Assembly (NCBI RefSeq): GCF_003710805.1
Contig: NZ_RHHB01000002.1
Coordinates: 1 to 64,000 of the forward strand
DNA length: 64,000 nucleotides
Direction of reading: 5' to 3'
Source of the DNA: Agromyces tardus
Lineage (GTDB): Bacteria > Actinomycetota > Actinomycetes > Actinomycetales > Microbacteriaceae
The notes below the pieces were generated by a model. The model had not been told where the DNA came from. It searched no databases and worked only from the letters and a program-made list of their open reading frames with translations. Every line of letters starts with the position of its first letter. The first letter of the stretch is position 1. Below, piece by piece: positions 23,498 to 38,962 of the stretch. The position numbers were made by a program, and so were the translations under genes.

Positions 23498-23527
23498 TTG
23501 ACAACGTTGTCAGGATGCGCATAGGTT
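23498..23527 (+). promoter_or_regulatory. Levansucrase promoter with a TGACAACGTTGTCA operator
   Basis: TTGACA (23498-23503), an 18-bp spacer and TAGGTT (23522-23527) form a promoter. The perfect palindrome TGACAACGTTGTCA (23499-23512) overlaps the -35. The same motif recurs at 31424, 35333 and 35413 upstream of the other fructan genes and marks a shared regulon. Confidence 0.78.
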
Positions 23528-23975
23528 CCTGTGCCGGGGGAAGTACAACGCCACGTTCTCGAGGAGCCGCCGAAATCGGCCGCTCACGGACCATCCGGTC
23601 CTCGCACGAAAGCGACGAACGTGAAGACAACGAACGAAACGGCCGTCGCCTGCATCGCAGGCGACGCGCATCGAGGCATCCGCTCGCCCGGCGACCCCGT
23701 CGGCGACGCCGTGCCCGCCCACGACCTCCGGCCGATCGACTGAGCTCGAACGGCCGGCCACGACCGGGTCGGCTGGAGGCGACCGCGACCTCGCCGTCGC
23801 CTGCACCCGCCCCCGGCCGTCGCGACTCGCGCGACGGCCCTCCCGCCGGGTTCCCCCGGGAGCCCGGCCACCCCGGCGGACACGGTCCGCCGATCCGTCG
23901 GCCGTGGACTCGCACTCTCGACACGACCCGTCGCAGCGCGAGCCCGGTCGCACCACACCCTACGAAAGGCACATC
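23528..23975 (+). other. Long structured leader of levansucrase (about 440 nt)
   Basis: No supported ORF lies between the promoter and ATG 23976. Three strong inverted repeats are visible: CGTCGCCTGC/GCAGGCGACG (23644-23666, 3-nt loop), GGCCGTCGCG/CGCGACGGCC (23815-23839, 5-nt loop) and GCCGGGTTCCC/GGGAGCCCGGC (23845-23868). The last two are adjacent and could act as an attenuator or stabilise the message. I do not recognise a known riboswitch. Confidence 0.5.
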
Positions 23976-25562
23976 ATGTCAACATCCACCAGGCGCATGC
24001 GGCGCCCCCTCGTCGGAGGGATCACCGCGGCCGGAGTCCTCGTCGGCACGCTGTTCACGGGCACGGCGGCGGCGGTCGCGCAGCCCGACCTGCAGCCCGG
24101 CGCCGAGCCCACCGTGCACACCCAGCAGGCCTACGCACCGGAGGACGACTTCACCGCGAAGTGGACCCGCGCCGACGCCAAGCAGCTGCAGCGGCTGTCG
24201 GACCCGAACGCGGCCTCCCGCGAGAACTCGATGCCAGCATCGCTCACCATGCCGACCGTCCCGCAGGACTTCCCCGACATGTCGAACGGCGAGGTCTGGG
24301 TCTGGGACACCTGGCCGCTGACCGACGAGCACGGCAACCAGTACAGCGTCAACGGCCAGGAGATCATCTTCTCGCTGGTCGCCGACCGGAGCCTCGGCTT
24401 CGACGACCGCCACGTCTTCGCCAAGATCGGCTACTTCTTCCGCCCGGCCGGGATCCCCGCCGACGAGCGGCCCGAGAACGGCGGCTGGACCTACGGCGGC
24501 CTCGTCTTCAAGGAGGGCGTCACCGGCACGATCTTCGAGGACCAGTCCTACAGCCACCAGACCCAGTGGTCCGGTTCCGCGCGGATCATGAAGGGTGGCG
24601 AGATCAAGCTGTTCTTCACGGATGTCGCGTTCTACCGTGACGCCGCCGGCAACAACATCAAGCCGTACGACCCGCGCATCGCGCTGAGCGTCGGCAAGGT
24701 GCACGCCAACAAGAACGGCGTGAAGCTGACGGGCTTCGACAAGGTGACCGACCTGCTGCAGGCCGACGGCACCTACTACCAGACCGGCGAGCAGAACCCG
24801 TACTTCAACTTCCGCGACCCGTTCACCTTCGAGGACCCGGCGCACCCCGGTGAGACCTACATGGTCTTCGAGGGCAACTCGGCCATGCCGCGCGAGTCCG
24901 CGCAGTGCACCGAGGAGGACCTCGGCTATCGCGAGGGCGACCCCTACGCCGAGTCCCTCGACGAGGTCAACGCCTCGGGCGCGACCTACCAGATCGGCAA
25001 CATCGGCCTCGCGAAGGCCAAGAACGACGAGCTGACCGAGTGGGAGTTCCTCCCGCCGATCCTCTCGGCGAACTGCGTCACCGACCAGACCGAGCGTCCG
25101 CAGTTCGTGTTCAAGGACGGGAAGTCCTACCTGTTCACGATCAGCCACCGCGGCACCTTCGCGGCCGGCCTCGACGGGCCGGAGGGCGTCTACGGCTTCG
25201 TCGGCGACGGCATCCGCAGCGACTTCCAGCCGCTGAACAGCGGGTCCGGCCTGGCCCTGGGCAACCCGACGAACCTCAACTTCGCCGGCGGCCAGCCGTT
25301 CGCGCCGGACTACAACCAACACCCCGGGCACTTCCAGGCGTACTCGCACTACGTCATGCCGGGCGGGCTCGTTCAGTCCTTCATCGACACCATCGGGACG
25401 CACGATGACTTCGTGCGCGGCGGGACACTCGCGCCGACGGTGAAGATGGACATCGAGGGCGCCAGCACGAGCGTCGACTACTCCTACGGGACCGGCGGCC
25501 TCGGCGGCTGGGCCGACATCCCGGCGAACCTCGACGTCAACTCGGGCGGCAAGCTCCAGTAG
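23976..25562 (+). CDS. sacB: Secreted levansucrase (GH68)
   Basis: A 528-residue GH68 fructosyltransferase that transfers fructose from sucrose to growing beta-2,6-fructan, releasing glucose. Signal peptide residues 1 to about 35 (basic start, GGITAAGVLVGTLF, cleavage near AAAVAQ). Catalytic residues: nucleophile Asp111 in VWDTWPL, transition-state Asp in FRDPF (about 281), acid/base Glu373 in TERPQF. ATG 23976 has GAAAGG upstream. Expression is probably repressed by the LacI protein of 34286-35347 through TGACAACGTTGTCA, and possibly tuned by the long leader. Inulosucrase activity cannot be excluded from sequence, but levansucrase is much more usual in this length class. Confidence 0.92.
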   Translation: MSTSTRRMRRPLVGGITAAGVLVGTLFTGTAAAVAQPDLQPGAEPTVHTQQAYAPEDDFTAKWTRADAKQLQRLSDPNAASRENSMPASLTMPTVPQDFPDMSNGEVWVWDTWPLTDEHGNQYSVNGQEIIFSLVADRSLGFDDRHVFAKIGYFFRPAGIPADERPENGGWTYGGLVFKEGVTGTIFEDQSYSHQTQWSGSARIMKGGEIKLFFTDVAFYRDAAGNNIKPYDPRIALSVGKVHANKNGVKLTGFDKVTDLLQADGTYYQTGEQNPYFNFRDPFTFEDPAHPGETYMVFEGNSAMPRESAQCTEEDLGYREGDPYAESLDEVNASGATYQIGNIGLAKAKNDELTEWEFLPPILSANCVTDQTERPQFVFKDGKSYLFTISHRGTFAAGLDGPEGVYGFVGDGIRSDFQPLNSGSGLALGNPTNLNFAGGQPFAPDYNQHPGHFQAYSHYVMPGGLVQSFIDTIGTHDDFVRGGTLAPTVKMDIEGASTSVDYSYGTGGLGGWADIPANLDVNSGGKLQ

Positions 25563-25568
25563 CCGCTT

Positions 25569-25612
25569 GCACGACGGATGCCCCGGGGATCCCCCGGGGC
25601 ATCCGGTCGTGC
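25569..25612. terminator. Strong bidirectional terminator between levansucrase and STAND copy 2
   Basis: GCACGACGGATGCCCCGGGG pairs with its complement across a 3-nt loop, with one bulged base: a stem of 20 bp. It separates the convergent levansucrase and DUF4062 genes. Confidence 0.75.
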
Positions 25613-25621
25613 AGCTCGCCG

Positions 25622-28240
25622 CTATGCCGTGGCGGCGGCGGTGAGCTCGGGCCCGAGCACCGCCTCGAACACGGCGCGACGCGGCATCCGTCGGCCCGCC
25701 GCACGGGCGGCCTCGAACTCGGCGGCCCGGTCGGAGGCGAGCACCGCCGCGACGAACGGCTGGTACGTCAGGTACGACCGCTGATCCGTGAGGCCCGTGC
25801 GCGCGCGCAGCGTCTCGGCCGCGCCGAGGAGGGTGCCCGCCCGGCGCAGGTCGCCGATCGCCGCCGCGGACGCGCTCAGCCCCTCGAGGGCGTACGCGGC
25901 GCCGTCGTCGTTGCGCAGCCGCGCCGCGAGCTCGAGGTTGCGCACGAAGGAGTGGGGATCGGGGCCGACCGACGCGAGCCGCGCCCATCCGATCTGCGTC
26001 AGCGCGATGCTCTCGACGAACAGGTCGCCCGAGCGCTCGGCCTCGGCCTGCGCCTCCTCGAAGAGCTGCAGCGCCTCGGCGGGCCGGCCGCGCTGCAGCA
26101 GGATGCGGCCGAGCGCGGTCCGGAGCAGCGCGCGGAACGTGGGGTCGCGCCGGACCTCGTCGATCTCGAGTGCGGCCCGCTGGCTCGCCTCCGCGCGTTC
26201 GATGTCGGGCTCGTCGATCGACATGCACGCGAGGGCGAGCACCGACAGTGCGATCCCCTCACCGAGCCCGTCGCCCACCTCGCGGAACAGCGCCGCGCTC
26301 TCCTCGAGTGGCTCCGTGCGCACGTCGCCGTCCGTCTGCCAGAGCGGCACCCACGCCGAATAGGCGAGCGCGATCGCCCGCGTACGCTTCGAGAGCGGCA
26401 GTCCGGCCTCGAGCACCCGGACCATCCACGCCTTCGCCTCAGGCAGCAGTCCGCGGATCCACCAGTACAGCAGCAGCCTCCAGACCGCGTCGGCCACCAC
26501 GTCGACCTCCTCGATCGCGATGAGGTGCCGGTAGGCGGCGCGGAGGTTGTCGCGCTCGGCCTCGAGCCGGGCGAGCGCGGTGACCTGCGTTGCGCCGCGC
26601 AGCATCGGCTCGATCTCGACGGCGAGCTGCACGTAGTGCTCGGCGTGGGCGCGGCGCACCGCCGCGGCATCCGGGTCGAGCTCGAAGCGCGCGGTCGCGA
26701 CCTCGCGCACCGTGCCGAGCATCGAGAAGAGCGGCACGCCGGCGTCGTCGCGCTGGCGCAGGAGGCTGCTGTCGACGAGCACGAGCAGGGTGCCGAGCAG
26801 GTCGGCGGCCCACGGGGCGCCGGCGGTGACCGCCTCGACGGCATCGAGGCTGAAGTCGCCTGCGAACACGCCGAGGCGGGCGAAGAGTGCCCGCGGCTCG
26901 GGCTCGAGCAGGTCGACGCTCCATTCGACGGTCGCCTGGATCGTGCGCTGGCGCTCCGGCACGTCGCGGGCCGCGTTCGCGAGCAGGGGCAGCATCCGGT
27001 CGAGCTTCGCGAGCATCGCGGCGGGCGTGAGCGCGCGGATGCAGGCGGCGGCGAGTTCGATCGCCAGCGGCACGCCGTCGAGCGCACGGCAGATGCGGGC
27101 GACGTCCTCGGCGTTCTCCGCGGTGATCTCGAACCGCGGATCCGCTGCCGTCGCCCGGTCCCGGAAGAGCCGCACGGCCGGGGCCTCGAGGATCGCCTCC
27201 ACCGACCCCTCCTCGGGCTCGGGCGGCAGGCTGAGCGGCTCGACGTCGAACACGTGCTCGCTCCGCAGGCGCAGCCGCGCGCGGCTCGTCACGAGCAGCG
27301 TGGCGCCGGGCAGGTCGTTGAGGAGCGCCATCAGGTCGGCGGCGGCCGGCAGCACCTGCTCGAAGTTGTCGAGCACGATGAGGTCGCGCCGGCCCGCGCG
27401 AGCGACCCCGAGCTGCTCGGACAGCGGCCGGTCGCGGGTGTCGCGCACCCCGAGCTCGCGCGCGATCGCCGGGAGCACGTCGGCCGGGTCGCGCACGTGC
27501 TCGAGCATCACGAAGGTGACGCGGTCGAACCGGTCGCCGGCGTTGCGGGCGACCTCGATCGCGAGGCGGCTCTTGCCGATGCCGCCGGGGCCCACGAGGG
27601 TGACGAGCCGACGCGCGTCGTCGTCGAGCCATGCGAGCAGGGTGGCGAGGTCGCGCTCGCGTCCGACCGCCTCGGAGAACGGCGCGGGGACGCGGCCGGC
27701 GGCGCCCGGCTCGTCGGGGGCGGACGCGGCCGGCCCCGCGGCATCCGCTCGCGACGCGTCGAAGCGCTCGGCGAGCAGCGTCGCGAGGTCGGCGGCCAGG
27801 AGGTCGGCGAGCTCGTCGGCGGTGGAGAAGGACTTGTACGACGCGGTGTCGTCGTCGCGGATGCGCTCGATGAGGCCGGCGAGCCGCTCCTCGCGCTGCG
27901 CGGGCTGCTTGACGTAGATGAGCTTGGGCATCTCGCGCGGAGCGAGGCGGTACTCGTCCTCGAGGCCCGAGACCTCCTCGCCGGACGCGACCCAGCCGTA
28001 CTGCTGCCAGTAGAGGCCCACGAACACGTCGCTCTGGTCGAGGTAGGCCCGGTAGAGCTCGCGGGGCGGATGCGGGCGCGCGCCGAGCTCGAACATCACC
28101 GGCGCGAGTCGCAGCTGCTCGATCGCGCCGCGTGCGGCGCGGCGTTCGGGCTCGAGCTCGCGCAGGGTGGAACTGACGAAGACCCGCAGGTGCTGGTCGG
28201 GCGTGCGGATCGGTGGAGCGTCGTAGCGGTCGTTCACCAC
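25622..28240 (-). CDS. DUF4062-NB-ARC-TPR STAND ATPase (copy 2)
   Basis: An 872-residue paralogue of the 16038-18665 protein, co-linear over its whole length. DUF4062 is at about 17-110 (LRVFVSSTLRELEPERRAA, LDQSDVFVGLYWQQYGWV, MPKLIYVK). Walker A GPGGIGKS is at 217-224, Walker B is DLIVLDNFEQ, and VPLAIELAAACIRAL closes the NTPase. TPR-like helices follow to the C-terminus (ASDRAAEFEAARAAGRRMPR). Long identical runs such as EQLGVARAGRRDLIVLD are shared. GTG 28240 (or 28237) follows GGAGG. It lies between levansucrase and the large GH32 gene but has no operator of that regulon. A regulatory role in the fructan cluster or a defence/immune role are both possible; neither is shown. Confidence 0.85.
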   Translation of the reverse strand: MVNDRYDAPPIRTPDQHLRVFVSSTLRELEPERRAARGAIEQLRLAPVMFELGARPHPPRELYRAYLDQSDVFVGLYWQQYGWVASGEEVSGLEDEYRLAPREMPKLIYVKQPAQREERLAGLIERIRDDDTASYKSFSTADELADLLAADLATLLAERFDASRADAAGPAASAPDEPGAAGRVPAPFSEAVGRERDLATLLAWLDDDARRLVTLVGPGGIGKSRLAIEVARNAGDRFDRVTFVMLEHVRDPADVLPAIARELGVRDTRDRPLSEQLGVARAGRRDLIVLDNFEQVLPAAADLMALLNDLPGATLLVTSRARLRLRSEHVFDVEPLSLPPEPEEGSVEAILEAPAVRLFRDRATAADPRFEITAENAEDVARICRALDGVPLAIELAAACIRALTPAAMLAKLDRMLPLLANAARDVPERQRTIQATVEWSVDLLEPEPRALFARLGVFAGDFSLDAVEAVTAGAPWAADLLGTLLVLVDSSLLRQRDDAGVPLFSMLGTVREVATARFELDPDAAAVRRAHAEHYVQLAVEIEPMLRGATQVTALARLEAERDNLRAAYRHLIAIEEVDVVADAVWRLLLYWWIRGLLPEAKAWMVRVLEAGLPLSKRTRAIALAYSAWVPLWQTDGDVRTEPLEESAALFREVGDGLGEGIALSVLALACMSIDEPDIERAEASQRAALEIDEVRRDPTFRALLRTALGRILLQRGRPAEALQLFEEAQAEAERSGDLFVESIALTQIGWARLASVGPDPHSFVRNLELAARLRNDDGAAYALEGLSASAAAIGDLRRAGTLLGAAETLRARTGLTDQRSYLTYQPFVAAVLASDRAAEFEAARAAGRRMPRRAVFEAVLGPELTAAATA

Positions 28241-28433
28241 CGCGCCTCCGCCCCCCGGTCGCGCCTGCCCCGCGGCTGCATGCTGCCATTCTGGGCTGTC
28301 GCGGGCGACGGCGTCCAGCATCGCCGACCCGCGTCGACCCGGCGGAGTCCGCGCCGGCGCAGTCCGGGGGCTGCCGGGGCTCGGCGCGGGTGGGGTGCGG
28401 CCATCCACGCCGCCGCACCCCGACCCGGCCGGT

Positions 28434-31382
28434 TCAGCCGGCGACCCGCACGACGAGCACACCCCCCGGCGTGACGCCCGCCGAGTTCTCGAGCTCGATC
28501 GTGTAGCGGTGCTCGCCCGGCGCTGCGCCCGCGATGTGGAACGCGAAGGTGCGCTCGGAGGTCGAGGTGCGGTACACGCGGTCGAGCACATGCCCGCCCT
28601 CGAGCAGCCGCACCACCGTCGTCGGCTGGCCCTTTCCGACCTTGACCTTGAGGTCGTAGGCGCCATCGGCGTCGGGTCCGTTCCGTGGTCCGGTCAGCGC
28701 GGTGAGCTCGGCCGCGGGTGGCGCGGCGGTCGCACCATCGGTGCCCGCCTCCCTGTACATCGCGCCGTGCAGCGGGGTCACCCTCAGCGATTCGAGCCGG
28801 GCGTCACCCCCCTCGGACCACAGGCCGATCGCCCGGGCGCCCGAGTTCGGGAACACCTGGTCGGTGATCGTGGTACGACCGTCGGCGGCGAAGACCTCGA
28901 CCGATGCCCGATCGACGTACACCGACAGGGCGATCGTGCCGTCCGCCCGGAGCGCGACCGGCGCGTCCTCGATCGACGCGAACGCCGGATGGAACCCGGT
29001 GTTCCCCGAGTCGCGCCGATCGACGAAGAGGCGGGCGGATGCAGCGTCGTAGCCGATCCGCGTCGCGGACTCGCCGTCGCCGAGCACGCTCAGCCCGGCC
29101 GCCGTCGCGTCACCGGGACGGATCACCGCGTCGATGCGCACGACGTCCCCGGAGACCGGCAGCGTCTCGGCGCCCTCGGCGATCGGCCGCGCGCCATCCG
29201 TGAATGCCACGTCGGGGCGTTCGAGCTCGGCGAACTCGGGCACGACCCGCTGCGCGAGGCGCGGCCCTCGGTCGGTCGTCACGAGCGACACCTCGCGCGG
29301 CAGCGCCATGGCGCTGCGCCACGAACCCGTCGGGATGTCGTTCGCGTAGTCCCAGTCGTTCATCCAGCCGAGCATCACCCTGCGGCCGTCGGGGGCGCCG
29401 TTGAACGACACCGTCGCGTAGTAGTCACGGCCCCAGTCGAGCCAGTCGTAGCCCTCGATGCGCGGTGCGGCTGCGGCATCCGAGAACATCACCTGGTCGA
29501 CGAGCACATGGCCCCAGCCGAAGCGGTTGTTGTCGACGATGCGCACGGATGCCTCGCGGCCCGCGAACTCGGCGACGTCCCAGCTCACCCAGTCGAGGTT
29601 CTCGCTGTTGCGGCCAGTGGCCGTGCGCACGACCTCGCCGTCGACGACGAGGTTGACCGACGTCTCCTCGGAGCGCGATTGCGCGGGTTCGGCGCCGAGC
29701 ACGAGGTGGTCGACCGTGAGGTGGCCCCAGCCGCCGGTCGCCTCGTCGTGCACCTGGAACCGCGCGTCACGACCCGCGAACTCGGCGACGTCCCACGACC
29801 GCCAGTTCAGCTGGCCCGCCTCGGGGCCGGTGGCGGTGCGCACGACCTCGCCGTCGACGAGCAGCCGGACCTCGAGCGACCCGTCGAGTCGCTTGCCCCC
29901 GCCGAGGAGGAACGACAGGTCGGTCTCGCCGTCCCGGATCGTGAACGTCGGGGAGGTGAGGTCACCCAGGTTGTCGTCGCCCCTCGGGCCGCCCTCCCAG
30001 GTGTTGAGGCGCTTGGCGCCGAGGTAGTAGTCCCCGCCTGCGGTGGACGGGTTGCGCCAGGGCTCGGCCGCCAGGTCGCCGGTGGCCTCCCAGCCGGTGT
30101 CCGCGAGCGTGGTGCCGTCGGCGAACTCGAAGCCGTCGAAGAGCAGGCGACCCGCGGGCGGCTCGTTGCCGAGCTGCGTGCCCTCGAGGTGGGGGTGGTT
30201 GCCGCCGCCGACGAGCAGGTTCACGAAGCGATCGCCGATCGTGAACGCGGGGGACTCGAGTGCGCCGATCGGCCAGTCGCCGTCGTTGAAGCCGTTCACG
30301 AGGCCGGCGCCGATGAAGCCCGAGACGGCGTTCTGGCCGGGCAGGGTTCCGGATGCCGGAGCGTCGCCCCAGGGGCCGTTGCGCCAGTTCCCGGGCTCGT
30401 TGCCGACGGTCCAGCCGTCGTAGGAGCCGCCGTCGAAGCCCGCGAACAGGTCGCCGTCGGGCGCCGCGGCATCGGACACCGTGCTCTCGGAGGTGAAGGT
30501 CGTCCCGTCGAAGTCGCCCACGAAGTACTGGCCGCCCGAGCCGCCCGCGACCGAGCCCGGGTTGAGGTTCACGACGAGCACCCACTTCGTGTTCGCCGGG
30601 TCGCCGTCGACGGGGAGCGGGAACAGGTCGGGGCACTCCCAGATGCCGCCCGTGGCGTTGGCGGGCCCGAAGTCGCTGAGGTGGGTCCAGTTCCTGAGGT
30701 CGTCGCTCCGGTAGAGCACGACCTTGTACTGCAGCGCCTCGACCGCCGCCATGACCCAGTAGGACTCGCCCGTGCCGGGGTTCGTGTAGCGGAACACCTT
30801 GGGGTCGCGGAAGTTCGCCGAACCGCGGTCGAGCACGGGGTTGCCGGCGTACTTGGTCCACGTCAGGCCGTGGTCGGTGCTGTAGGCGATCGACTGCGCC
30901 TGCGTGCCCGCGCGGGTGGGGTGCGCCGGCGTGTACGCGCTCGTGTAGATCGCGACCATCGGCGGATCCCCGGCGGTGCCGAAGCCCGAGGTGTTGCCCT
31001 CGTCGACGACGACCGACCCGGAGAAGATGTCCTCGATCGCGGTGCCGCCCTCGTCGAAGGTCTGCGCGATGGCGAGGGGCTGCTCCTCCCAGTGCAGGAG
31101 GTCGGTGCTCGTCGCGTGGCCCCAGCTCATGTTGCCCCAGCGGGTGCCGTACGGGTTGTGCTGGAAGAACAGGTGCCAGGTGCCGTCGTCGTAGACGAGG
31201 CCGTTCGGGTCGTTCATCCAGTTCCGCTCCGGCGAGAAGTGGAGGTACGGCCGGTACTGCTCCTCGGCCGGGTTCGGATCGGCTGCCTCCTCGGCGGCGG
31301 CGGGTTGCAGCGAGAGGAGGGATGCAGCGGTCGCGGCCACGGCCACGATCGCGAGTGTTCGGAGAGTTGATACCGTCGTCAT
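28434..31382 (-). CDS. Large secreted GH32 fructanase with nested insert modules (GH32-2)
   Basis: A 982-residue secreted exo-levanase/inulinase-like enzyme. Signal peptide 1-30 (ends LQPAAA). GH32 catalytic residues: WMNDPNG (55-61), FRDPK (191-195), ECPDLF (249-254). The propeller is then interrupted at about 308-645 and resumes at WGRDYYATVSF. The insert holds two related beta-sandwich-like modules; the second (about 409-570) sits inside the first, whose own end (VNLVVDGEVVRTATG to VMFSD) resumes at about 575. The GH32 C-terminal sandwich runs to about 860, followed by a C-terminal Ig-like domain (about 885-982). The inserts are probably carbohydrate-binding. The promoter carries the TGACATCGTTGTCA operator. 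Confidence 0.9.
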   Translation of the reverse strand: MTTVSTLRTLAIVAVAATAASLLSLQPAAAEEAADPNPAEEQYRPYLHFSPERNWMNDPNGLVYDDGTWHLFFQHNPYGTRWGNMSWGHATSTDLLHWEEQPLAIAQTFDEGGTAIEDIFSGSVVVDEGNTSGFGTAGDPPMVAIYTSAYTPAHPTRAGTQAQSIAYSTDHGLTWTKYAGNPVLDRGSANFRDPKVFRYTNPGTGESYWVMAAVEALQYKVVLYRSDDLRNWTHLSDFGPANATGGIWECPDLFPLPVDGDPANTKWVLVVNLNPGSVAGGSGGQYFVGDFDGTTFTSESTVSDAAAPDGDLFAGFDGGSYDGWTVGNEPGNWRNGPWGDAPASGTLPGQNAVSGFIGAGLVNGFNDGDWPIGALESPAFTIGDRFVNLLVGGGNHPHLEGTQLGNEPPAGRLLFDGFEFADGTTLADTGWEATGDLAAEPWRNPSTAGGDYYLGAKRLNTWEGGPRGDDNLGDLTSPTFTIRDGETDLSFLLGGGKRLDGSLEVRLLVDGEVVRTATGPEAGQLNWRSWDVAEFAGRDARFQVHDEATGGWGHLTVDHLVLGAEPAQSRSEETSVNLVVDGEVVRTATGRNSENLDWVSWDVAEFAGREASVRIVDNNRFGWGHVLVDQVMFSDAAAAPRIEGYDWLDWGRDYYATVSFNGAPDGRRVMLGWMNDWDYANDIPTGSWRSAMALPREVSLVTTDRGPRLAQRVVPEFAELERPDVAFTDGARPIAEGAETLPVSGDVVRIDAVIRPGDATAAGLSVLGDGESATRIGYDAASARLFVDRRDSGNTGFHPAFASIEDAPVALRADGTIALSVYVDRASVEVFAADGRTTITDQVFPNSGARAIGLWSEGGDARLESLRVTPLHGAMYREAGTDGATAAPPAAELTALTGPRNGPDADGAYDLKVKVGKGQPTTVVRLLEGGHVLDRVYRTSTSERTFAFHIAGAAPGEHRYTIELENSAGVTPGGVLVVRVAG

Positions 31383-31423: not shown

Positions 31424-31479
31424 TGACATCGTTGTCAGGATTCGGCGCGATGCTACGCACTGTCGACCGGACAATTCAA
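31424..31479 (-). promoter_or_regulatory. GH32-2 promoter with a TGACATCGTTGTCA operator
   Basis: Reading leftward: TTGAAT (31474-31479), an 18-bp spacer and TAGCAT (31450-31455) form the promoter. The operator TGACATCGTTGTCA (31424-31437) lies just downstream of the expected start of transcription, so bound repressor would block it. Confidence 0.75.
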
Positions 31480-32059: not shown

Positions 32060-32100
32060 GGCGTGCTCCGGGCCGCCCGCGCCGCGTAGGCTCCATGGTC

Positions 32101-33345
32101 ATGGGGGACTCGCCGGGGAATCGACGCACGCCGCCCGCTCGCAGCGGGCGACCGGGAATCGCCGACGTGGCGGCCGAGGCCGGGGTGTCGCCCTCGACGG
32201 TGTCGAGCGCGCTGAACGGCACCCGCGCGGTGCGCCCCGAGACCAGGGAGCGCGTCCTCCGGGCGGCCGAACGACTCGGCTACCTTCCGTCCAAGGCGCC
32301 CAAGGCGCCCAAGGCGCCCAAGGCGCCCAAGGCGTCCACGGCGCCCACGGCGCCCAAGGCGCCCGAGGCGTCCAAGGCGCCCGAGGCGTCCAAGGCGCCC
32401 GAGGCGTCCAAGGCGCCCGAGGCGTCCAAGGCGCCCGACGCCCCCAGGGCCGCTCGGGAGGAGTCGCCGCGACCGACCCGAGTCATCGGCGTCATCACCG
32501 ACGGCATCGCCACGACGCCCTTCGCCGGCCGTATCGTGCAGGGCGCGCAGGAGGTCGCACGCGAGCGGGGCGCCCTGCTCATGGTGCTCGACTCCGGCGG
32601 CGACCCAGAGCTCGAGGCGCACCACCTGTGCTCCCTCCCCGAGCACGGCGTCGACGGCGTGCTCTACACGCGCACGGTGCACGCGGAGGTCGAGCGCCCG
32701 CGCGAGCTGGGCGACCTCCCCGTCGTGCTCGTGGGCGCGGCGCCCGCCGACGGCTGGACCGTGCCCGCTGTCGTGCCCGACGAGTACGCCCTCGCGAGCG
32801 CTGCCGTCGCGCACCTGCTGGAGGTGGGGCACCGCCGCTTCGCGTTCCTCACCTCGGACGAGGACACCCCCGCCACGCGCGGGCGCGCCGACGGCTTCGC
32901 ATCCGCCCTCGCGCCCGCGTGGTACGACGGCGCTCGGTCCGTCGTCGAGCGCGCCGCGCCCGACGCGGCGGGCGGTCGGCGCGTGGCCCGGCGCCTGCTC
33001 CACCTCCCCGTCGGGGAGCGGCCCACGGCGATCGTCTGCTTCAACGACCAGATGGCGATGGGCGTCTACCAGGGAGCGGAGGCGCTGGGCCTCGAGGTGC
33101 CGCGCGATGCCTCGGTGCTCGGCATCGGCGACCTCGAACTGCTCACCGAGTCGCTCGACCCCCCGCTCTCCACCGTGGCGCTGCCGCACCGCGAGATGGG
33201 GCGCTGGGGCATGACCGCGCTGCTCGCGCTGCTCGAGGGCAGGGCGGCGGATGCCGCGGAGCCGGTGCAGCTCGCGGGCGAACTCGTCGAGCGTCGCTCC
33301 GTCGCTCGGCCGCGTCGCCTGATCCCCTGGCTCACCGGGCGCTGA
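32101..33345 (+). CDS. LacI-family regulator with a repeat-expanded hinge (LacI-2)
   Basis: A 414-residue paralogue of LacI-1. The helix-turn-helix is VAAEAGVSPSTVSSALNG. Where LacI-1 has the hinge helix PNPIASGLRLQR, this protein has 17 tandem triplets of the form (K/E/T/D)A(P/S), residues 65-115, then an Arg/Pro linker before the sensor domain (RVIGVITDGIATTPFAGRIV). The sensor domain is intact, ending LPHREMGRWGMTALLALL. ATG 32101 is 8 nt after TAGGCT, as in LacI-1. In ordinary LacI proteins the hinge helix inserts in the minor groove and transmits the ligand signal, so DNA binding or allostery may be altered. Possible regulator of GH32-1. Confidence 0.85.
   Translation: MGDSPGNRRTPPARSGRPGIADVAAEAGVSPSTVSSALNGTRAVRPETRERVLRAAERLGYLPSKAPKAPKAPKAPKASTAPTAPKAPEASKAPEASKAPEASKAPEASKAPDAPRAAREESPRPTRVIGVITDGIATTPFAGRIVQGAQEVARERGALLMVLDSGGDPELEAHHLCSLPEHGVDGVLYTRTVHAEVERPRELGDLPVVLVGAAPADGWTVPAVVPDEYALASAAVAHLLEVGHRRFAFLTSDEDTPATRGRADGFASALAPAWYDGARSVVERAAPDAAGGRRVARRLLHLPVGERPTAIVCFNDQMAMGVYQGAEALGLEVPRDASVLGIGDLELLTESLDPPLSTVALPHREMGRWGMTALLALLEGRAADAAEPVQLAGELVERRSVARPRRLIPWLTGR
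32293..32445 (+). repeat. 9-bp/18-bp tandem repeat inside LacI-2
   Basis: Seventeen contiguous 9-bp units, all in frame: four AAGGCGCCC units, four variants, then four 18-bp units GAGGCGTCCAAGGCGCCC and a final GACGCCCCC. It encodes (KAP)4, KAS-TAP-TAP-KAP, (EASKAP)4, DAP. Near-identity of units suggests recent slippage expansion and possible length polymorphism. Confidence 0.9.
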
Positions 33346-33375
33346 GCGCCGCCGCACACGACCGCCGCGCTCGGC

Positions 33376-34281
33376 TCAGGCCTCCGGCGGCACTCGCAGC
33401 AGCGCGCCTTCGGCGCGCACGGTCGCCGCGGCGATGCGCATCGCGTGCTCGAGCGCGGCCTGCCATTCCGCGTCCGTCGACGGCACGCCCGCCGTCGCGA
33501 TCTCGTGCGTGATCGCCGCGAGGGTGGCGTCGCCGCCGCCCATCGTGTCGATCACGGGGCCGTCGAGTGGCACGATCCCCGCGCGCACGGCGCTCCCGCG
33601 GTGGTGCACGGCAGCCCCGTCGCGTCCGGCAGTCGCGAGCACCGCCGGGTCGCCCACCGCGAGGATCCGGTCGACGAACTCGGAGAGCGGTGCGTCGAGC
33701 AGCAGCTCGGCGTCGTCGTCGCCGATCTTCGCCACGAGCGATCGCGACGCGAAGTCGAGGAAGTTGTCGAGGAACCGGGCGCGGTCGTGCATCATGCCCG
33801 AACGCGGGTTGCCGTCGACGACGACGCGCTCCGCGGGCCGGGCGATCGCGTCGACGAGTGCCCGGTACTGCGCCTCGTCATCGAACGGGAAGCAGCTGAC
33901 CACCACCAGGTCGGCCTCGTCGAAGGCGTCGAGCGTGGCCTCGTCGAACCGCAGGGCCCGGCGCTGGGCCGCCTCGTTGAACTCGTAGCGCGGCTCGCCG
34001 TCGGTGCGGTCGCTGACCGCACGCGAGGTGCCGTGCGGCGAGGGGCTCGCGACCAGGTCGACGCCGTGCTCCGCGAGGAAGGAGCGGATCTCGTCGCCCG
34101 GCGCGTCGTCGCCCACCATCGCGACCAGCGTGGGGCGATGGCCGAGCACGGCGAGTCCGACGGCGACGTTCAAGGCGGCACCGCCGACGAAGTCGCGCGA
34201 GCCGGTCGCGTCGCGCAGCTCGTCGATGAGTGCGTCGCCGACGACGACGATGTTCGCAGGGGAACCGATGGGCTGCGACAT
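33376..34281 (-). CDS. PfkB-family sugar kinase, probable fructokinase
   Basis: A 301-residue ribokinase/PfkB-family kinase. N-terminal substrate motif VVVGDALIDEL with GGAALNVAVGLAVLG; the C-terminal catalytic motif is DTMGGGDATLAA (consensus DTxGAGD, here Gly for Ala, with the catalytic Asp retained). It would phosphorylate the fructose brought in by the ABC importer of 35465-38609, most simply to fructose 6-phosphate. It begins 4 nt after the LacI-3 stop, so it is in the same transcript and under the same TGACAACGATGTCA operator. The exact sugar and position phosphorylated are inferred from context. Confidence 0.85.
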   Translation of the reverse strand: MSQPIGSPANIVVVGDALIDELRDATGSRDFVGGAALNVAVGLAVLGHRPTLVAMVGDDAPGDEIRSFLAEHGVDLVASPSPHGTSRAVSDRTDGEPRYEFNEAAQRRALRFDEATLDAFDEADLVVVSCFPFDDEAQYRALVDAIARPAERVVVDGNPRSGMMHDRARFLDNFLDFASRSLVAKIGDDDAELLLDAPLSEFVDRILAVGDPAVLATAGRDGAAVHHRGSAVRAGIVPLDGPVIDTMGGGDATLAAITHEIATAGVPSTDAEWQAALEHAMRIAAATVRAEGALLRVPPEA

Positions 34282-34285
34282 CCGC

Positions 34286-35347
34286 TCAGCCCCTCTCTCG
34301 CGGCGGGATCTCCCCGGAGCCGCGCTCGATCAGACGGGTGGGAACGACGGTGCGCACGGCGGGGCCGGCGTCGCCGTCGAGACGTGCGAAGACCCGCTCG
34401 GCGGCGATGCGCCCGATCTCCTGCGGGTTCTGGGCGACGACGGTGACACCGGGCTCGAGGAGGTCGGCGAGCGGCACGTCGTCGAATCCGACGAGCGCGA
34501 TCGCGTGCTGCAGTCCCGACTCGCGCAGCGCGTGCAGCACGCCGATCGTCACGAGGTTCTGGGCGGAGAAGATCGCGGTCGGCGGGTCGTCGCGCTCGAG
34601 CAGCGCGAGGGCCGCGAGCCGTGCCGTCTCGATGTCGTGCAGGTTCTCGATGACCGGGATGTCGCGGGTCGCGATCCCGGCCAGGCCGAGCTCGTCGAGG
34701 AAGCCGCGACGTCGGGCCTGGGCCGTGCGGATCTCGGCGCGGTCGCCGAGGTAGGCCAGGCGCCGATGGCCTCGCTCGAGGAGGTGGCGTGTGGCGACGG
34801 CCGCGCCCTCGAGGTTGTCGCTGACAACGGTGTCGGATGCGACGCCGGCAGGTTCGCGGTCGACGAAGACGACCGGGGTGCCGCGGCGGAGTTCGGGTGC
34901 GAGGTAGGCCTGGCTCTCGGAGATCGTGGTGAGGATGAGGCCGTCGACGCGGCGGCGGAGGAAGGCGGACACGGCCTCCTGCTCCCGCGCCGGGTCGTCG
35001 TCGAGGCTCGATGCGAACACGGCGACGCCGCGGGCGAGGGCAGCGTCTTCGACGGCCCGATGCACCGCACCCGAGAAGGGGTTGTCGACGCTGCCGACCA
35101 GCAGCCCGATCGTACGGGTGCGCCCGTCGGCCCGGCGGAGATTGCCCGCGTGCAGGTCGGGCTGGTAGTCGAGCGTGCGCGCGGCGGCGGTGACCTTGGC
35201 GATCGTCGCAGCCGACACGTTCGGCTCGCCGTTGATGACTCGCGAGACGGTCTTCACGCCGACGCCGGCGAGCGCCGCGACGTGCCGCATGGTGGGGCGC
35301 GCGCGGGCATTCTCAGGTGCGGCGACGCCGTCTGACAACGATGTCAC
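34286..35347 (-). CDS. LacI-family repressor of the fructan regulon (LacI-3)
   Basis: A 353-residue repressor. Helix-turn-helix MRHVAALAGVGVKTVSRVIN, hinge LHAGNLRRADGRTRTIGLLV, then the sensor domain (VDNPFSGAVHRAVEDAAL; VGFDDVPLADLLEPGVTVV). GTG 35347 was chosen because GGAGA lies 8-9 nt upstream; ATG 35290 is possible. The GTG overlaps the operator TGACAACGATGTCA (35333-35346), implying autoregulation. The motif recurs at the divergent ABC operon, the large GH32 gene and levansucrase, which makes this protein the best candidate regulator for all four. The inducer is probably fructose, a fructose phosphate or levanbiose (inference). Confidence 0.87.
   Translation of the reverse strand: MTSLSDGVAAPENARARPTMRHVAALAGVGVKTVSRVINGEPNVSAATIAKVTAAARTLDYQPDLHAGNLRRADGRTRTIGLLVGSVDNPFSGAVHRAVEDAALARGVAVFASSLDDDPAREQEAVSAFLRRRVDGLILTTISESQAYLAPELRRGTPVVFVDREPAGVASDTVVSDNLEGAAVATRHLLERGHRRLAYLGDRAEIRTAQARRRGFLDELGLAGIATRDIPVIENLHDIETARLAALALLERDDPPTAIFSAQNLVTIGVLHALRESGLQHAIALVGFDDVPLADLLEPGVTVVAQNPQEIGRIAAERVFARLDGDAGPAVRTVVPTRLIERGSGEIPPRERG
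35333..35346 (-). promoter_or_regulatory. Autoregulatory operator at the LacI-3 start codon
   Basis: TGACAACGATGTCA, arms TGACA/TGTCA. On the minus strand TATAGT (35379-35384) is a likely -10 for LacI-3-pfkB; the operator lies downstream of it and overlaps the GTG start. Confidence 0.72.
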
Positions 35348-35375
35348 TTTTCGGTCTCCAATTTGAGAGGTCGGG

Positions 35376-35426
35376 TTGACTATACACATTCCCATGGACT
35401 ACACCTAAGGCTTGACATCGTTGTCA
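35376..35426 (+). promoter_or_regulatory. ABC importer promoter and operator
   Basis: TTGACT (35376-35381), an 18-bp spacer and TACACC (35400-35405) form a plausible promoter. TGACATCGTTGTCA (35413-35426) lies at the expected transcription start, the classic position for repression. Confidence 0.7.
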
Positions 35427-35464
35427 TGAGACGACGGTCGCCTACATCCAGAGGAGATTCATCG

Positions 35465-36559
35465 ATGAATCACGCAGCACTCGGCGCCTTCCGTCGCCGT
35501 CTCATCATTGCCGGCTCGCTCACCGCCGCCGCCGCGCTCGCCCTGTCGGGATGCGCGTCGTCCGGCGATTCGGGAGAAGCCGCCGCCGATGACGCCGTCG
35601 GCGTCTCGCTCATCGTCAAGACCACCAGCAACCCCTTCTTCGTGGCGATGCAGGACGGCGCGGAGGCCGCCGCCGAGAAGCTCGGCGTCGACCTCACCCT
35701 CGCGGCAGGCAAGGAGGACGGCGACGAGGACACCCAGATCCAGGCGATCGAGAACGCGATCTCCAAGGGCGACGCGGGCATCCTGATCACGCCGAACGGC
35801 CCCGGCGTGGAGGACGCCCTCGTCAAGGCGCGCGACGCCGGCCTCTACGTCATCGCGCTCGACACCCCGCCGTCCGACCCCGAGGCGGTGGACATCACGT
35901 TCGCGACCGACAACTTCCTCGCCGGCCAGTACATCGGCGAGTGGACCGCGGCGAAGCTCGGCGGCGAGAAGGCCACGATCGCGATGCTCGACCTGTTCGA
36001 CGACAAGGTCGTCTCGGTCGACGTCGCTCGCGACCAGGGCTTCCTCGACGGGATGGGCATCGACCTCGCCGACGAGACCGTGAACGGCGACGAGGCGCCG
36101 ACCGGCACCTACAGCGGCGGCGACTACGAGATCGTGGGCAATGAGGCCACCCAGGGCGCCGAGGACGGCGGCCGCACCGCCGCAGAGACGCTGCTCTCGA
36201 AGAACCCCGACATCAATGTCGTGTACACGATCAACGAGCCCGCCGCGTATGGCGCCTTCGAGGCGTTCAAGGCCGCGGGGGCCACGAAGGACCTCATCGT
36301 CGTGTCCGTCGACGGCGGGTGCGCGGGCATCGACGCGGTGAAGGACGGCACCATCGGGGCGACGAGCCAGCAGTACCCGCTGAAGATGGCCGAGCTGGGC
36401 GTCCAGGCGGTGTACGACCTCGTGACCACGGGGAAGGCTCCCGAGACGACCGACGGCCTGGACTTCTACAACACGGGCGTCGCCCTCGTGACGGATGACC
36501 CGCAGGGCGGCATCGACTCGATCGACACCGCCGAGGCCGGCGACATCTGCTGGGGCTAG
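35465..36559 (+). CDS. Sugar ABC transporter substrate-binding lipoprotein (FrcB-like)
   Basis: A 364-residue lipoprotein. Signal peptide RRLIIAGSLTAAAALALSGC, with lipobox LSGC. It is a pentose/fructose-type periplasmic-binding protein (Peripla_BP_4): VSLIVKTTSNPFFVAMQDGA, ALDTPPSDPEAVDITFATDN, VYTINEPAAYGAFEAFKAAG, VVSVDGGCAGIDAVKDGTI. ATG 35465 has GAGGAG 9 nt upstream. It captures the sugar, most likely fructose or a short fructan product, for the permease (36712) and ATPase (37749). It lies divergent from LacI-3 behind a shared operator region. Confidence 0.9.
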   Translation: MNHAALGAFRRRLIIAGSLTAAAALALSGCASSGDSGEAAADDAVGVSLIVKTTSNPFFVAMQDGAEAAAEKLGVDLTLAAGKEDGDEDTQIQAIENAISKGDAGILITPNGPGVEDALVKARDAGLYVIALDTPPSDPEAVDITFATDNFLAGQYIGEWTAAKLGGEKATIAMLDLFDDKVVSVDVARDQGFLDGMGIDLADETVNGDEAPTGTYSGGDYEIVGNEATQGAEDGGRTAAETLLSKNPDINVVYTINEPAAYGAFEAFKAAGATKDLIVVSVDGGCAGIDAVKDGTIGATSQQYPLKMAELGVQAVYDLVTTGKAPETTDGLDFYNTGVALVTDDPQGGIDSIDTAEAGDICWG

Positions 36560-36572
36560 TTCCGGCCGCCGC

Positions 36573-36653
36573 GTGAGCGGTGCGGGCAAGGGGTCCCGAC
36601 CGGAGCCCGTCTCCGATCGTCGGGGACGCACCGATCCGGCCCGCACCGCTCAC
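36573..36653 (+). repeat. Intercistronic hairpin between binding protein and permease
   Basis: GTGAGCGGTGCGGGC (36573-36587) and its exact complement (36639-36653) enclose 51 nt, which contain a second imperfect pair (TCCCGACCGGAG / CTCCGATCGTCGGGGA). It starts 13 nt after the binding-protein stop. Such structures between malE-malF-like genes stabilise the upstream message or attenuate the downstream one, giving more binding protein than permease. Confidence 0.65.
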
Positions 36654-36711
36654 CCCCGCCGGCGGCCGATGCCGCCTGCGGACCTCGACCACTTCCGAAT
36701 TGGAGCAGCAC

Positions 36712-37752
36712 GTGAGTCAGCAAACGACCGAGCCGCCGACGTCGGCGCTCGACCTCGCCGAGGAGTTCCTCGACCGCACCACCCCGCTCAGCCGCATCCG
36801 CAACACCCTGCACCGCTACCCCGCACTCAGCCCGGCCATCGTGCTGGTCGTGTCCGTGGTCGTGTTCGGGCTGCTGAACGAACGATTCCTCAATCCCGCC
36901 AACCTCTCGCTCATCACCCAGCAGGTCGCCGTCGTCGGCACGCTCGCGATCGCTCAGACGCTCGTCATCCTGACCGCGGGCATCGACCTGTCGGTCGGCG
37001 CGGTGATGGTGCTGAGTTCCATGGTCATCGCCCAGTCCTCGGTGCAGGCGGGTCTGCCCGCCGTGATCGCCCTCGCACTCGGCCTGGCGGTCGGCCTCGC
37101 CGCGGGCGCCCTCAACGGCTTCCTCGTCACCCGGCTGAACCTGCCGCCATTCATCGTCACCCTCGGCACGCTGAACATCTTCGTCGCGCTCACCCTGCTC
37201 TACTCGTCGGGCGCGACGGTGCGCGGCGCGGAGATGCCCGAACTGCTCACGTGGACCGGGTCGACCTTCGACATCCTCGGCGTCAACTTCACTGTGGGCG
37301 TCGTCCTCATGCTCCTGCTCTACGTGGCGATCGCGTTCATCCTCGCGAAGACCGCGTGGGGCCGCCACGTCTACGCGGTCGGCGACGACCGCGAGTCGGC
37401 GCGCCTCGCCGGCATCCGGGTGAATCGCGTGCTGATGAGCGTCTACCTCGCCGCCGGAGCCATCCTCGCGGTCGGCGCGTGGATCCAGATCGGCCGCACC
37501 AACGCGGCGTCCCCGAACGCGGGCATCGACCTGAACCTCGACTCGATCACCGCCGTCGTCATCGGCGGCACGAGCCTGTTCGGCGGTCGCGGGACGGTGT
37601 GGGGCACACTCCTCGGCGCCCTCATCGTGGGCGTCTTCCGCAACGGACTCTCGCTCGCCGGGCTCGACGTGCTCTGGCAGACCTTCGCCGTCGGCGTGCT
37701 CATCATCGTGGCCGTCTCGGTCGACCAGTGGATCAGGAAGGTACGCGCATGA
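36712..37752 (+). CDS. Sugar ABC transporter permease (RbsC/FrcC-like)
   Basis: A 346-residue inner-membrane permease of the BPD_transp_2 family. It has about nine or ten helices, including VAVVGTLAIAQTLVILTAGI and DLSVGAVMVLSSMVIAQSS (the GIDLSVG motif conserved in ribose/fructose permeases), and VVIGGTSLFGGRGTVWGTLL (the EAA-like GGTSLFGG motif). GTG 36712 follows TTGGAG. The gene overlaps the ATPase by ATGA. It forms the membrane channel for the sugar bound by the 35465 lipoprotein. A single permease gene implies a homodimer. Confidence 0.92.
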   Translation: MSQQTTEPPTSALDLAEEFLDRTTPLSRIRNTLHRYPALSPAIVLVVSVVVFGLLNERFLNPANLSLITQQVAVVGTLAIAQTLVILTAGIDLSVGAVMVLSSMVIAQSSVQAGLPAVIALALGLAVGLAAGALNGFLVTRLNLPPFIVTLGTLNIFVALTLLYSSGATVRGAEMPELLTWTGSTFDILGVNFTVGVVLMLLLYVAIAFILAKTAWGRHVYAVGDDRESARLAGIRVNRVLMSVYLAAGAILAVGAWIQIGRTNAASPNAGIDLNLDSITAVVIGGTSLFGGRGTVWGTLLGALIVGVFRNGLSLAGLDVLWQTFAVGVLIIVAVSVDQWIRKVRA

Positions 37753-38609
37753 CCCCCAACGAGCCCGCCGGCAGCGCCGGCGCAGCATCCGTCGACGACG
37801 CCGTCGGTGCCTTCGCGGATGCCGCGGGCACCCCGACTCCGGCGGGTGACTCCCGCACGCCCATCCTGCGGGCCCGACGTCTCGTGAAGACCTTCGGCCG
37901 AGTCGTCGGCCTCGACGGGGTCAGCCTCGAGCTCTACCCGGGCGAGGTGCTCGCGATCATCGGGGACAACGGCGCGGGCAAGTCGACGCTCATCAAGTGC
38001 CTCACGGGCGCCGAGGTGCCCGACGAGGGCGAGATCTGGCTCGAGGGGCAGCCGGTGCACTTCAAGCGTCCGCAGGATGCCCGGGCGGCCGGCATCGAGA
38101 CGGTGTACCAGAACCTGGCGGTCTCGCCCGCCCTCGACGTCGCCGCGAACCTCTTCCTCGGCCGCGAGGAGCGGAAGAAGGGCCTCCTCGGCTCGGTGTT
38201 CCGGGTGGTCGACCAGAAGGGCATGCGGCAGAGGGCGAGGCAGGAGCTGGCGGCGCTCGGCATCTCGACGCTGCAGGATGTCACGGTGCCGGTCGAGAAC
38301 CTCTCCGGTGGCCAGCGCCAGGCGGTCGCCGTGGCACGCGCCGCGGCCTTCGGGTCGAAGGTCGTCGTGCTCGACGAGCCCACCGCGGCGCTCGGCGTAC
38401 GGGAGTCGAACCAGGTGCTCGAGCTCGTGAAGAACCTGCGCGACAAGGGGATCCCGGTGATCCTCATCTCGCACAACATGCCGCACGTGTTCGAGGTCGC
38501 CGACCGCATCCACATCCAGCGGCTCGGCAAGCGCGCCGCGACGATCACCCCGCAGTCGCACTCGATGACCGACGCGGTCGCGATCATGACCGGGGCCCGC
38601 CGCGGATGA
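37749..38609 (+). CDS. Sugar ABC transporter ATPase, single-domain (FrcA-like)
   Basis: A 286-residue ATPase with Walker A GDNGAGKST (about residues 75-83), Q-loop YQNLAV, signature LSGGQRQAVAVARA, Walker B KVVVLDEPTAALG and switch ILISHNMPHV. It has one nucleotide-binding domain, unlike the duplicated RbsA type, so it resembles FrcA. The first 36 residues (Ala/Gly/Ser-rich) are an extra flexible arm. It starts inside the end of the permease gene (ATGA) and ends inside the start of the monooxygenase-like gene, so the four proteins are translationally coupled. Confidence 0.92.
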   Translation: MTPNEPAGSAGAASVDDAVGAFADAAGTPTPAGDSRTPILRARRLVKTFGRVVGLDGVSLELYPGEVLAIIGDNGAGKSTLIKCLTGAEVPDEGEIWLEGQPVHFKRPQDARAAGIETVYQNLAVSPALDVAANLFLGREERKKGLLGSVFRVVDQKGMRQRARQELAALGISTLQDVTVPVENLSGGQRQAVAVARAAAFGSKVVVLDEPTAALGVRESNQVLELVKNLRDKGIPVILISHNMPHVFEVADRIHIQRLGKRAATITPQSHSMTDAVAIMTGARRG

Positions 38610-38962
38610 GCTGGGCGACCCCGTCCGGGCAGGTCGAGCTCGTCGCGGAGTTCACGGCATTGCCGGGCCGCGAGCAGCAGGTCGAGCAGCTGCTGCTCGA
38701 GCTGACCCACGCCGTTCGGGCCGAAGACGGATGCCTCGTGTTCGACCCCTACGTCGTCACCGGGCCGCCGTCCGGGGCGGGCGTGGTCGCGACCCCCGCC
38801 CCGGACGGCACCCGATACGTCGTCGTCGAGGCGTATCGCGACGCCGATGCCTTCGCCGCGCACCTCGCGGCGCCCCACGGCGCGGTGTTCAACGCTGCCC
38901 TGCGTCCGCTCATCGCGGAGCCCGACGGGTCGCGGCTGACCTTCCTCCGGCGCCTCGCCTGA
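38606..38962 (+). CDS. ABM-family (YgiN-like) small monooxygenase or dimeric barrel protein
   Basis: A 118-residue ferredoxin-like dimeric alpha/beta barrel: QVELVAEFTALPGREQQVEQ, TRYVVVEAYRDADAFAAHL, HGAVFNAALRPLI. The ABM family includes quinol monooxygenases, haem-degrading enzymes and sugar-related mutarotase-like proteins. Start ATG 38606 overlaps the ATPase stop (ATGA), so it belongs to the fructan ABC operon. An insertion (PSGAGVVATPAPDGT) lengthens one loop. Its place in a sugar operon suggests a role on the imported sugar, such as anomer or aldehyde handling, but nothing in the sequence proves it. Confidence 0.75.
   Translation: MSWATPSGQVELVAEFTALPGREQQVEQLLLELTHAVRAEDGCLVFDPYVVTGPPSGAGVVATPAPDGTRYVVVEAYRDADAFAAHLAAPHGAVFNAALRPLIAEPDGSRLTFLRRLA

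Follow-up and report, generated by a model that had tools for sequence, protein, structure and literature searches.

Which regulator reads a palindrome that recurs across a fructan and sucrose island of the soil bacterium Agromyces tardus, and what do the genes beneath it accomplish? The island lies in a 64,000-nucleotide stretch of contig NZ_RHHB01000002.1 (the window, positions 1 to 64,000), where the palindrome TGACAWCGWTGTCA stands at the promoters of a GH68 enzyme gene, a GH32 enzyme gene, an operon encoding the LacI-family regulator LacI-3 and a PfkB-family kinase, and an ATP-binding cassette (ABC) importer operon. The initial annotation interpreted this arrangement as a store-and-recover cycle for levan under one repressor. 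The comparative analysis presented here makes it likely that LacI-3 is the autoregulated local repressor of a fructose-capture regulon for sucrose and fructans, and the locus is very probably an ordinary fructose-harvesting circuit instead of a levan storage cycle.

Four copies of one palindrome

Gene coordinates were derived from frame composition and translation, and families were assigned with Pfam. The motif, its positions, its conservation, the gene content and the homologies are read directly from the sequence. The features of the candidate regulon are as follows, with their basis in brackets.

23499-23512, plus strand: op1, TGACAACGTTGTCA, operator at the GH68 promoter (exact match, geometry, conservation)
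23976-25562, plus strand: secreted GH68, K-1-type beta-fructofuranosidase (PF02435; identity to 3VSR; secretion judged by eye from the N-terminus)
28434-31382, minus strand: GH32b, probably secreted exo-fructanase, exo-inulinase-like (Pfam GH32N and GH32C; PDB 8I12)
31424-31437, minus strand: op2, TGACAACGATGTCA as read on that strand, downstream of the GH32b promoter (exact match, conservation)
33376-34281, minus strand: sugar kinase of the pfkB family and probable fructokinase, 4 bp downstream of LacI-3 (PF00294)
34286-35347, minus strand: LacI-3, LacI-family regulator (PF00356 and PF13377, Peripla_BP_3, above cut-off)
35333-35346, minus strand: op3, at the LacI-3 start (exact match, conservation)
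35376-35408, no strand: putative overlapping divergent promoter between op3 and op4 (conserved blocks in 50 loci)
35413-35426, plus strand: op4, at the importer promoter, about +1 (exact match, conservation)
35465-36559, plus strand: FrcB-like sugar-binding protein (54% identical to the Sinorhizobium meliloti binding protein and to Neorhizobium frcB)
36712-37752, plus strand: FrcC-like permease (50% identical to the S. meliloti permease)
37749-38609, plus strand: FrcA-like ATPase of 286 residues with a single nucleotide-binding domain
38606-38962, plus strand: ABM-domain protein, last gene of the importer operon (PF03992; adjoins the ATPase gene in many relatives)

TGACAWCGWTGTCA is an even palindrome with a central CG, found at the promoter of the regulator itself and at target promoters. 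The window contains four exact copies, and the whole genome (4,060,518 bases in 91 contigs) contains these same four and no others, all inside 12 kb at the upstream or start regions of four genes. A first-order Markov model built on the dinucleotide composition of the window predicts 0.00028 exact copies per 64 kb and 0.018 per genome by chance, and the reversed control pattern has no match in the whole genome. Allowing up to two mismatches yields 30 places in the genome (the four exact copies, one with one mismatch and 25 with two). At up to three mismatches the window has 8 sites for 3.5 expected, a number reached in 4 of 100 shuffles. The signal is carried by the exact sites, and the three-mismatch count in the window is unremarkable. 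The genome scan, which the initial annotation had proposed as a check, therefore bears out its description of one palindrome at four promoters; the gene positions also agree (including 35465-38609 for the importer), and LacI-3 is indeed the only one of the three LacI genes in the studied stretch that carries the site itself.

The sole one-mismatch copy in the genome (C67:38708) is located where a permease gene and a GH106 rhamnosidase gene diverge, within the first codons called for the permease. It is no evident fructose target and was left out of the regulon.

The promoters at the four sites are putative assignments from conservation and spacing, made through phylogenetic footprints; a generic sigma-70 scan detected none of them. 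The GH68 promoter would consist of a -35 element TTGACA (23498-23503), most of it inside op1, and a -10 element TAGGTT (23522-23527), with op1 476 bp from the GH68 start codon. Across 12 aligned loci, picked for having the operator, op1 ranks 14 of 887 14-mers by conservation, and CATAG follows CTTGACAACGTTGTCAG at -10 spacing, so that the operator would cover the -35 element. Upstream of GH32b, the assigned elements are TTGAAT (31479-31474) and TAGCAT (31455-31450), with op2 12 bp downstream of the -10; in an alignment of 24 loci this operator is invariant, ranks first of 317 14-mers and lies just 3' of a conserved TTGCAT/TAGCAT-type promoter. The spacer of the GH32b promoter (31455-31479) contains in addition an odd palindrome, TGTCCG.CGGACA, that is conserved in the 24 aligned loci and has a weaker form, TGTCCGGTCGACA, in the window; it is perhaps the site of a second regulator.

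In the gap between LacI-3 and the importer, op3 comes immediately after the initial G of the LacI-3 start codon, GTG, and op4 lies 7 bp downstream of the assigned importer -10. The predicted divergent promoters, TTGACT/TACACC for the importer (plus strand) and TTAGGT/TATAGT for LacI-3 (minus strand), overlap in such a way that each -35 coincides with or adjoins the opposing -10. Blocks CTTGACTaTA and CTAgACCTa, conserved across 50 divergent LacI-3/importer loci, fit this arrangement. Among 185 14-mers in the alignment of these loci, op4 is the most conserved (0.98) and op3 ranks third (mean conservation 0.95 versus a background of 0.72). The claim that each copy overlaps a -35/-10 or a start site is thus about right: op1 overlaps a -35 and op3 a start codon, whereas op2 and op4 stand a short distance downstream of their -10 elements.

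LacI-3 and the motif in related genomes

In a sample of 60 Agromyces genomes, LacI-3 orthologs (E up to 1e-80; that of G219 is partial) occur in 29 genomes and the exact motif in the same 29, while the other 31 have neither. Fisher's test gives p of about 1e-17, a value that overstates the significance since it is computed over related, non-independent genomes. GH68 above the family cut-off is found in 16 of the 60 genomes and strong GH32b matches in 26, all within the 29 LacI-3 genomes. Importer and LacI-3 form the core that is kept in relatives, GH68 being present in 16 of the 29. Two members of the genus (G212 and G232) possess LacI-3, the importer, pfkB and the motif, with no match to GH68 or GH32b genome-wide and none to LacI-1 or LacI-2, the other LacI genes of the island, in the stretch around the locus. 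Since the motif persists in these genomes without those genes, it tracks LacI-3 and the importer.

A second set consists of the 80 best named LacI-3 loci among 221 relatives, in part from the same genomes as the genus sample, and represents Agromyces, Leifsonia, Cryobacterium, Arthrobacter, Glycomyces, Herbiconiux, Microbacterium and others. Within 420 bases around the start of the LacI-3 match, 62 of the 80 have the exact motif and 79 a copy with no more than one mismatch; a control region within the LacI-3 gene shows it in none of the 80. A pair of motifs (up to two mismatches each) is present in 78 loci, with a spacing of 76-80 bp in 77 of them and 67 bp in the other, and the divergent set of 50 loci has the pair in 49, 77-80 bp apart. 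DNA looping between op3 and op4 was considered as the cause of this fixed spacing but is not favored, as 76-80 bp amounts to about 7.5 helical turns and LacI-3 (353 residues) was judged to have no tetramerization tail; the geometry of the overlapping promoters is the preferred explanation.

The operators of the enzyme genes are also found in relatives. All 30 GH32b orthologs over 50% identity, window included, have the exact motif upstream at about 42-114 bp. Of the 16 GH68 copies of the genus whose upstream sequence could be read, again with the window included, 12 have exact op1 (L138, at a contig edge, and L162, a fragment, are omitted). When 396 genomes were drawn from the whole order, GH68 matched in 18, of which 16 lie outside the genus. 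L266 and L278, two of the 16, carry a one-mismatch site upstream of GH68; L280 has an exact site, which stands upstream of a GH32b-like gene and not of its GH68. The comparison of LacI-3 loci strongly favors LacI-3 as the reader of the motif and as the regulator of its own gene and the importer genes, and its role as an autoregulated local repressor is well supported. The proposal of one palindrome and one repressor over four units holds up insofar as GH68, GH32b, LacI-3-pfkB and the importer are tied together by this evidence; its levan synthesis and degradation part does not.

Four relatives (L127:6517, L137:5763, L149:5833 and L141:11878) contain an extra exact operator with a GH32b-like promoter between convergent GH68 and GH32b genes, perhaps the remnant of a GH32b duplication.

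Enzymes, importer and a second palindrome

From these data we infer LacI-3 as the binder, repression as its action, fructose as its effector and the products of the enzymes. LacI-3 would bind TGACAWCGWTGTCA at the four promoters and silence the regulon as long as the cell takes up neither fructose nor a close derivative of it. Secreted GH68 would split or transfructosylate sucrose, secreted GH32b would free fructose from fructans and fructo-oligosaccharides, the FrcBCA-type importer would bring fructose in, and the PfkB kinase, likely co-transcribed with LacI-3, would trap it by phosphorylation. The inducer would free all four operators: op1 over the GH68 -35, op3 at the start codon of LacI-3, and op2 and op4, both close to transcription starts.

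The GH68 protein has the PF02435 fold and contains Asp111, Asp281 (in RDP) and Glu373 (in DQTERP), which we take to be the catalytic residues. It shares 423 of 490 aligned residues (86%) with 3VSR, the beta-fructofuranosidase of Microbacterium saccharophilum (Arthrobacter sp.) K-1, with a bit score of 995 versus 644 for the next-best solved relative, a levansucrase. On sucrose alone, the K-1 enzyme reportedly performs mostly hydrolysis. At the position that probably corresponds to Glu146 of Lsc3, as mapped through the WSGS motif, the window protein has Gln197 in place of the usual levansucrase Glu. The 15 relatives from the genus that cover the site and reach 68% identity (L144 and 14 others, these at 85% or above) all have Gln, while Kozakia baliensis, L123-L126 and a second copy in L165 (65% identical) have Glu. 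The position of Lsc3 Asp333 is non-diagnostic: it is Glu403 in the window, Glu also in L123, L124, L126 and L165, Asp in Kozakia and Asn in Bacillus subtilis. Passages of one study describe the Glu-to-Gln change in Lsc3 as giving less levan and more fructo-oligosaccharides, and credit the K-1 enzyme with high transfructosylating activity (PMC6271050). The label "levansucrase" is not confirmed for this K-1-like protein with Gln197, which may nevertheless form levan or fructo-oligosaccharides.

GH32b has the exo-inulinase 8I12 as its best PDB match, in two stretches, followed by 1Y4W, and the matches align on both sides of an insert. This insert of about 330 residues (about 310-640) splits the GH32 module and contains similar repeated segments, as judged by eye. 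The second GH32 protein, GH32a, has the endolevanase LevB1 (9H8I) and levan fructotransferases as its best PDB matches. It belongs to a further group of features in and around the regulon:

20458-21525, plus strand: LacI-1 (Pfam)
21530-23233, minus strand: GH32a, endolevanase-like, divergent from GH68 (best PDB matches)
23374-23391, no strand: second palindrome, TTGCAAATCGATTTGCAA, probable GH32a operator (genome uniqueness, spacing)
25622-28666, minus strand: DUF4062/AAA (NB-ARC)/TPR protein, between GH68 and GH32b
31538-32059, plus strand: GNAT-type protein (named by eye)
32095-33345, plus strand: LacI-2 (Pfam)

Op1 lies in the gap shared by GH68 and GH32a with its promoter facing GH68, and TTGCAAATCGATTTGCAA is nearer to the GH32a start. 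Because the palindrome upstream of GH32a is a different one, the likeliest intra-chain levan cutter is not evidently part of the LacI-3 regulon. The 15-base core of TTGCAAATCGATTTGCAA occurs once in the genome. A palindrome of this type (up to three mismatches) accompanies exact op1 in 11 loci, window included, and in all 11 the two are 125-126 bp apart, although in these loci GH68 starts anywhere between 94 and 476 bp from op1. By eye, LacI-1 adjoins GH32a in 9 of 9 GH68/GH32a loci with the second palindrome and sufficient DNA, and in 0 of 3 loci without it (L137, L141 and L149). TTGCAAATCGATTTGCAA is probably the operator of GH32a, with LacI-1 as its likely reader.

A spacing of 125-126 bp is about 12 helical turns and would therefore place both palindromes on one face of the DNA. 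This raises the idea of a two-input switch, in which one LacI repressor senses fructan fragments and the other fructose, and the two interact or jointly gate the endolevanase and the sucrose-splitting enzyme. Such a switch seems doubtful: L144, where op1 has two mismatches, has a spacing of 171 bp, and the 11 loci are close relatives whose constancy possibly reflects shared descent in part.

The other neighbors have features of their own. LacI-2 contains a 9-bp tandem repeat in 16 copies (32291-32436), which, translated, forms a linker of some 50 residues, rich in Lys, Ala and Pro, that joins the DNA-binding domain to the effector domain; outside the linker, LacI-1 and LacI-2 are 58-69% identical. 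Tandem copies of the DUF4062-NB-ARC-TPR gene adjoin GH32b in several relatives (L129, L132 and L151), and the match of this protein to mad8 in PADLOC is weak.

The importer resembles FrcBCA in the homology of its FrcB- and FrcC-like proteins, its single-domain ATPase and its frc gene order. The S. meliloti locus with which it shares the identities listed above consists of a divergent ROK regulator and RbsD/FucU gene, followed by genes for the binding protein, the permease, a 260-residue ATPase and an overlapping kinase-like protein; these were equated with frcBCA from their order, as the record does not use the name. By coordinates, the Neorhizobium ATPase has 262 residues, compared with 286 here. 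The S. meliloti frc locus transports fructose, according to parts of a published account (PMC10433430). Among solved structures, ribose-binding proteins are nearest to the binding protein, and LacI-3 scores best against RbsR models, without reaching their cut-offs. For the kinase, the best NCBIfam match is the fructokinase model NF006957 at 75 bits, below the cut-off of 450, and a PDB search returned no match at 1e-15.

Alternative readings and known systems

Several observations weigh against the fructose-capture regulon. The genus counts are phylogenetically non-independent, and one of the 80 named loci, L233, has no site. In a family draw of 199 genomes, the exact motif is present in 18 of 29 with LacI-3 and also in 16 of 170 without it, and in other Agromyces genomes the exact palindrome lies upstream of LacI-1-like genes (L163:5384, L167:4624, L169:7390 and L172:7377); across the family it is not exclusive to LacI-3. 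Lower-identity GH32b-like genes of L110 (44%) and of L275 and L276 (53-54%) are without a site, and no exact site precedes the second GH32b-like gene of the A. tardus genome (C1:198717, 57% over the matched part). The exact operator is also missing at 4 of the 16 genus GH68 copies, where L137, L149 and L165 have none and L144 has two mismatches. Outside the genus, no site was found at the GH68 genes of L123, L124, L126 (a partial match) and L125 (40% identical; up to one mismatch allowed) in the family draw, nor, at up to two mismatches in the DNA covered, upstream of the other 14 of 16 GH68 genes in the order draw. The specificity of the kinase for fructose is weakly supported. Finally, GH68 identity to K-1 is no measure of product: Cellulosimicrobium cellulans MP1, whose GH68 enzyme is 58% identical to that of M. 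saccharophilum, makes levan, as portions of a report on that strain state (PMC8325422).

The same portions describe levansucrase and levanases in one MP1 cluster, and the authors propose that the levan may act as a carbon store (PMC8325422). A comparable cycle in A. tardus, with GH68 making levan from sucrose when sugar is plentiful and the GH32 enzymes digesting it later, all under LacI-3, would agree with a GH68 gene, from a family that includes levansucrases, beside two GH32 genes, one of them similar to endolevanases and levan fructotransferases. It is nonetheless very unlikely, and this part of the initial annotation is not sustained: GH68 is of the K-1 type with Gln where levansucrases usually have Glu, GH32b is exo-inulinase-like, the endolevanase-like GH32a has a different palindrome upstream, and GH68 is optional among LacI-3 genomes of the genus. 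Moreover, one repressor would free maker and breaker together, so that any polymer would be made and hydrolyzed at once, with no separation of storage from later recovery.

That LacI-1, LacI-2 or several paralogs together mainly read the palindrome is suggested by the 16 family genomes that have the motif without LacI-3 and by the extra sites beside LacI-1-like genes (about 46% identity), which in L163 and L169, the two scanned, adjoin CUT1-type binding proteins. Exact sites next to LacI genes whose recognition helices differ mean that the palindrome may have further LacI readers, and the extra sites suggest either an extension of the regulon or cross-reading. As an account of this island, however, a main reader other than LacI-3 is highly improbable, given that LacI-3 and the motif coincide across the genus, that some loci with both have no LacI-1 or LacI-2 match nearby, that the recognition helices of LacI-1 (SPTTVSHA) and LacI-2 (SPSTVSSA) differ from that of LacI-3 (VKTVSRVI), that the LacI-1 and LacI-2 genes have no such site of their own, and that the second palindrome fits LacI-1 better. 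The likeness of the binding protein and of LacI-3 to ribose systems would instead allow for another sugar, such as ribose, allose or a fructose oligomer, as substrate and effector. This is unlikely in view of the resemblance of binding protein and permease to frc-order genes and, for the binding protein, to an annotated frcB, and of the operator shared with fructose-releasing enzymes.

A fructose-capture regulon under LacI-3 would be of an ordinary type, a local autoregulated LacI regulon, in a lineage for which literature searches, covering titles and abstract openings, found no description. In the portions of a LacI-family survey available (PMC4052901), local autoregulated sugar regulons include those of the fructose and fructo-oligosaccharide regulators FruR and BfrR, and 72% of studied regulators are autoregulated. 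The system described here shares with them the central-CG palindrome, a regulator adjoining transporter and enzyme genes, and a sugar pathway as target, and it is probably autoregulated as well. However, its paired sites are 76-80 bp apart, compared with survey peaks at 13, 22 and 32 bp, and op3 overlaps a start codon, compared with less than 1% of survey sites in coding regions. These survey portions name no LacI-3-type regulator, and the main text has no word starting with TGACA. The string TGACAACGTTGTCA, the single form of the motif searched, had no match in a literature text search. Searches for LacI with levansucrase or levanase in Actinobacteria, for fructose ABC importers with LacI and for levan storage with a repressor, judged by titles and abstract openings, found no description of the regulon, and a search for Agromyces with fructans, judged in the same way, had no Agromyces among the matches listed.

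The locus is like the S. meliloti frc locus in its binding protein, permease, single-domain ATPase and divergent regulator, but the regulator there is of the ROK family and here of the LacI family, and here a PfkB kinase stands beside the regulator and GH68/GH32 enzymes share the operator. The GH68 protein matches K-1 beta-fructofuranosidase in the Gln and the Glu at the two positions discussed as well as in overall identity. A sucrose-acting GH68 grouped with fructan-degrading genes is also found in B. subtilis sacB-yveB-yveA and C. cellulans MP1 sacC1-levB-sacC2-ls, which the consulted parts of the MP1 report present as operons with levansucrase (PMC8325422), in contrast to the separate promoters, shared operator and K-1-type GH68 of this island. 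Three of its details are unusual: two operators flank a predicted overlapping divergent promoter at a constant distance of 76-80 bp, one of them abuts the start codon of the regulator, and 125-126 bp separate the two different palindromes between GH32a and GH68.

These results assign a probable regulator, operator and role to the fructan and sucrose island of Agromyces, and the same assignment extends to the LacI-3-importer core in several actinobacterial genera. GH68 has likely been misnamed levansucrase, so that monosaccharides and short oligosaccharides, instead of polymer, are to be expected as its products. With the motif, fructose regulons can be sought in a phylum that, as far as the available portions of the survey indicate, is under-represented among reconstructed LacI regulons (PMC4052901).

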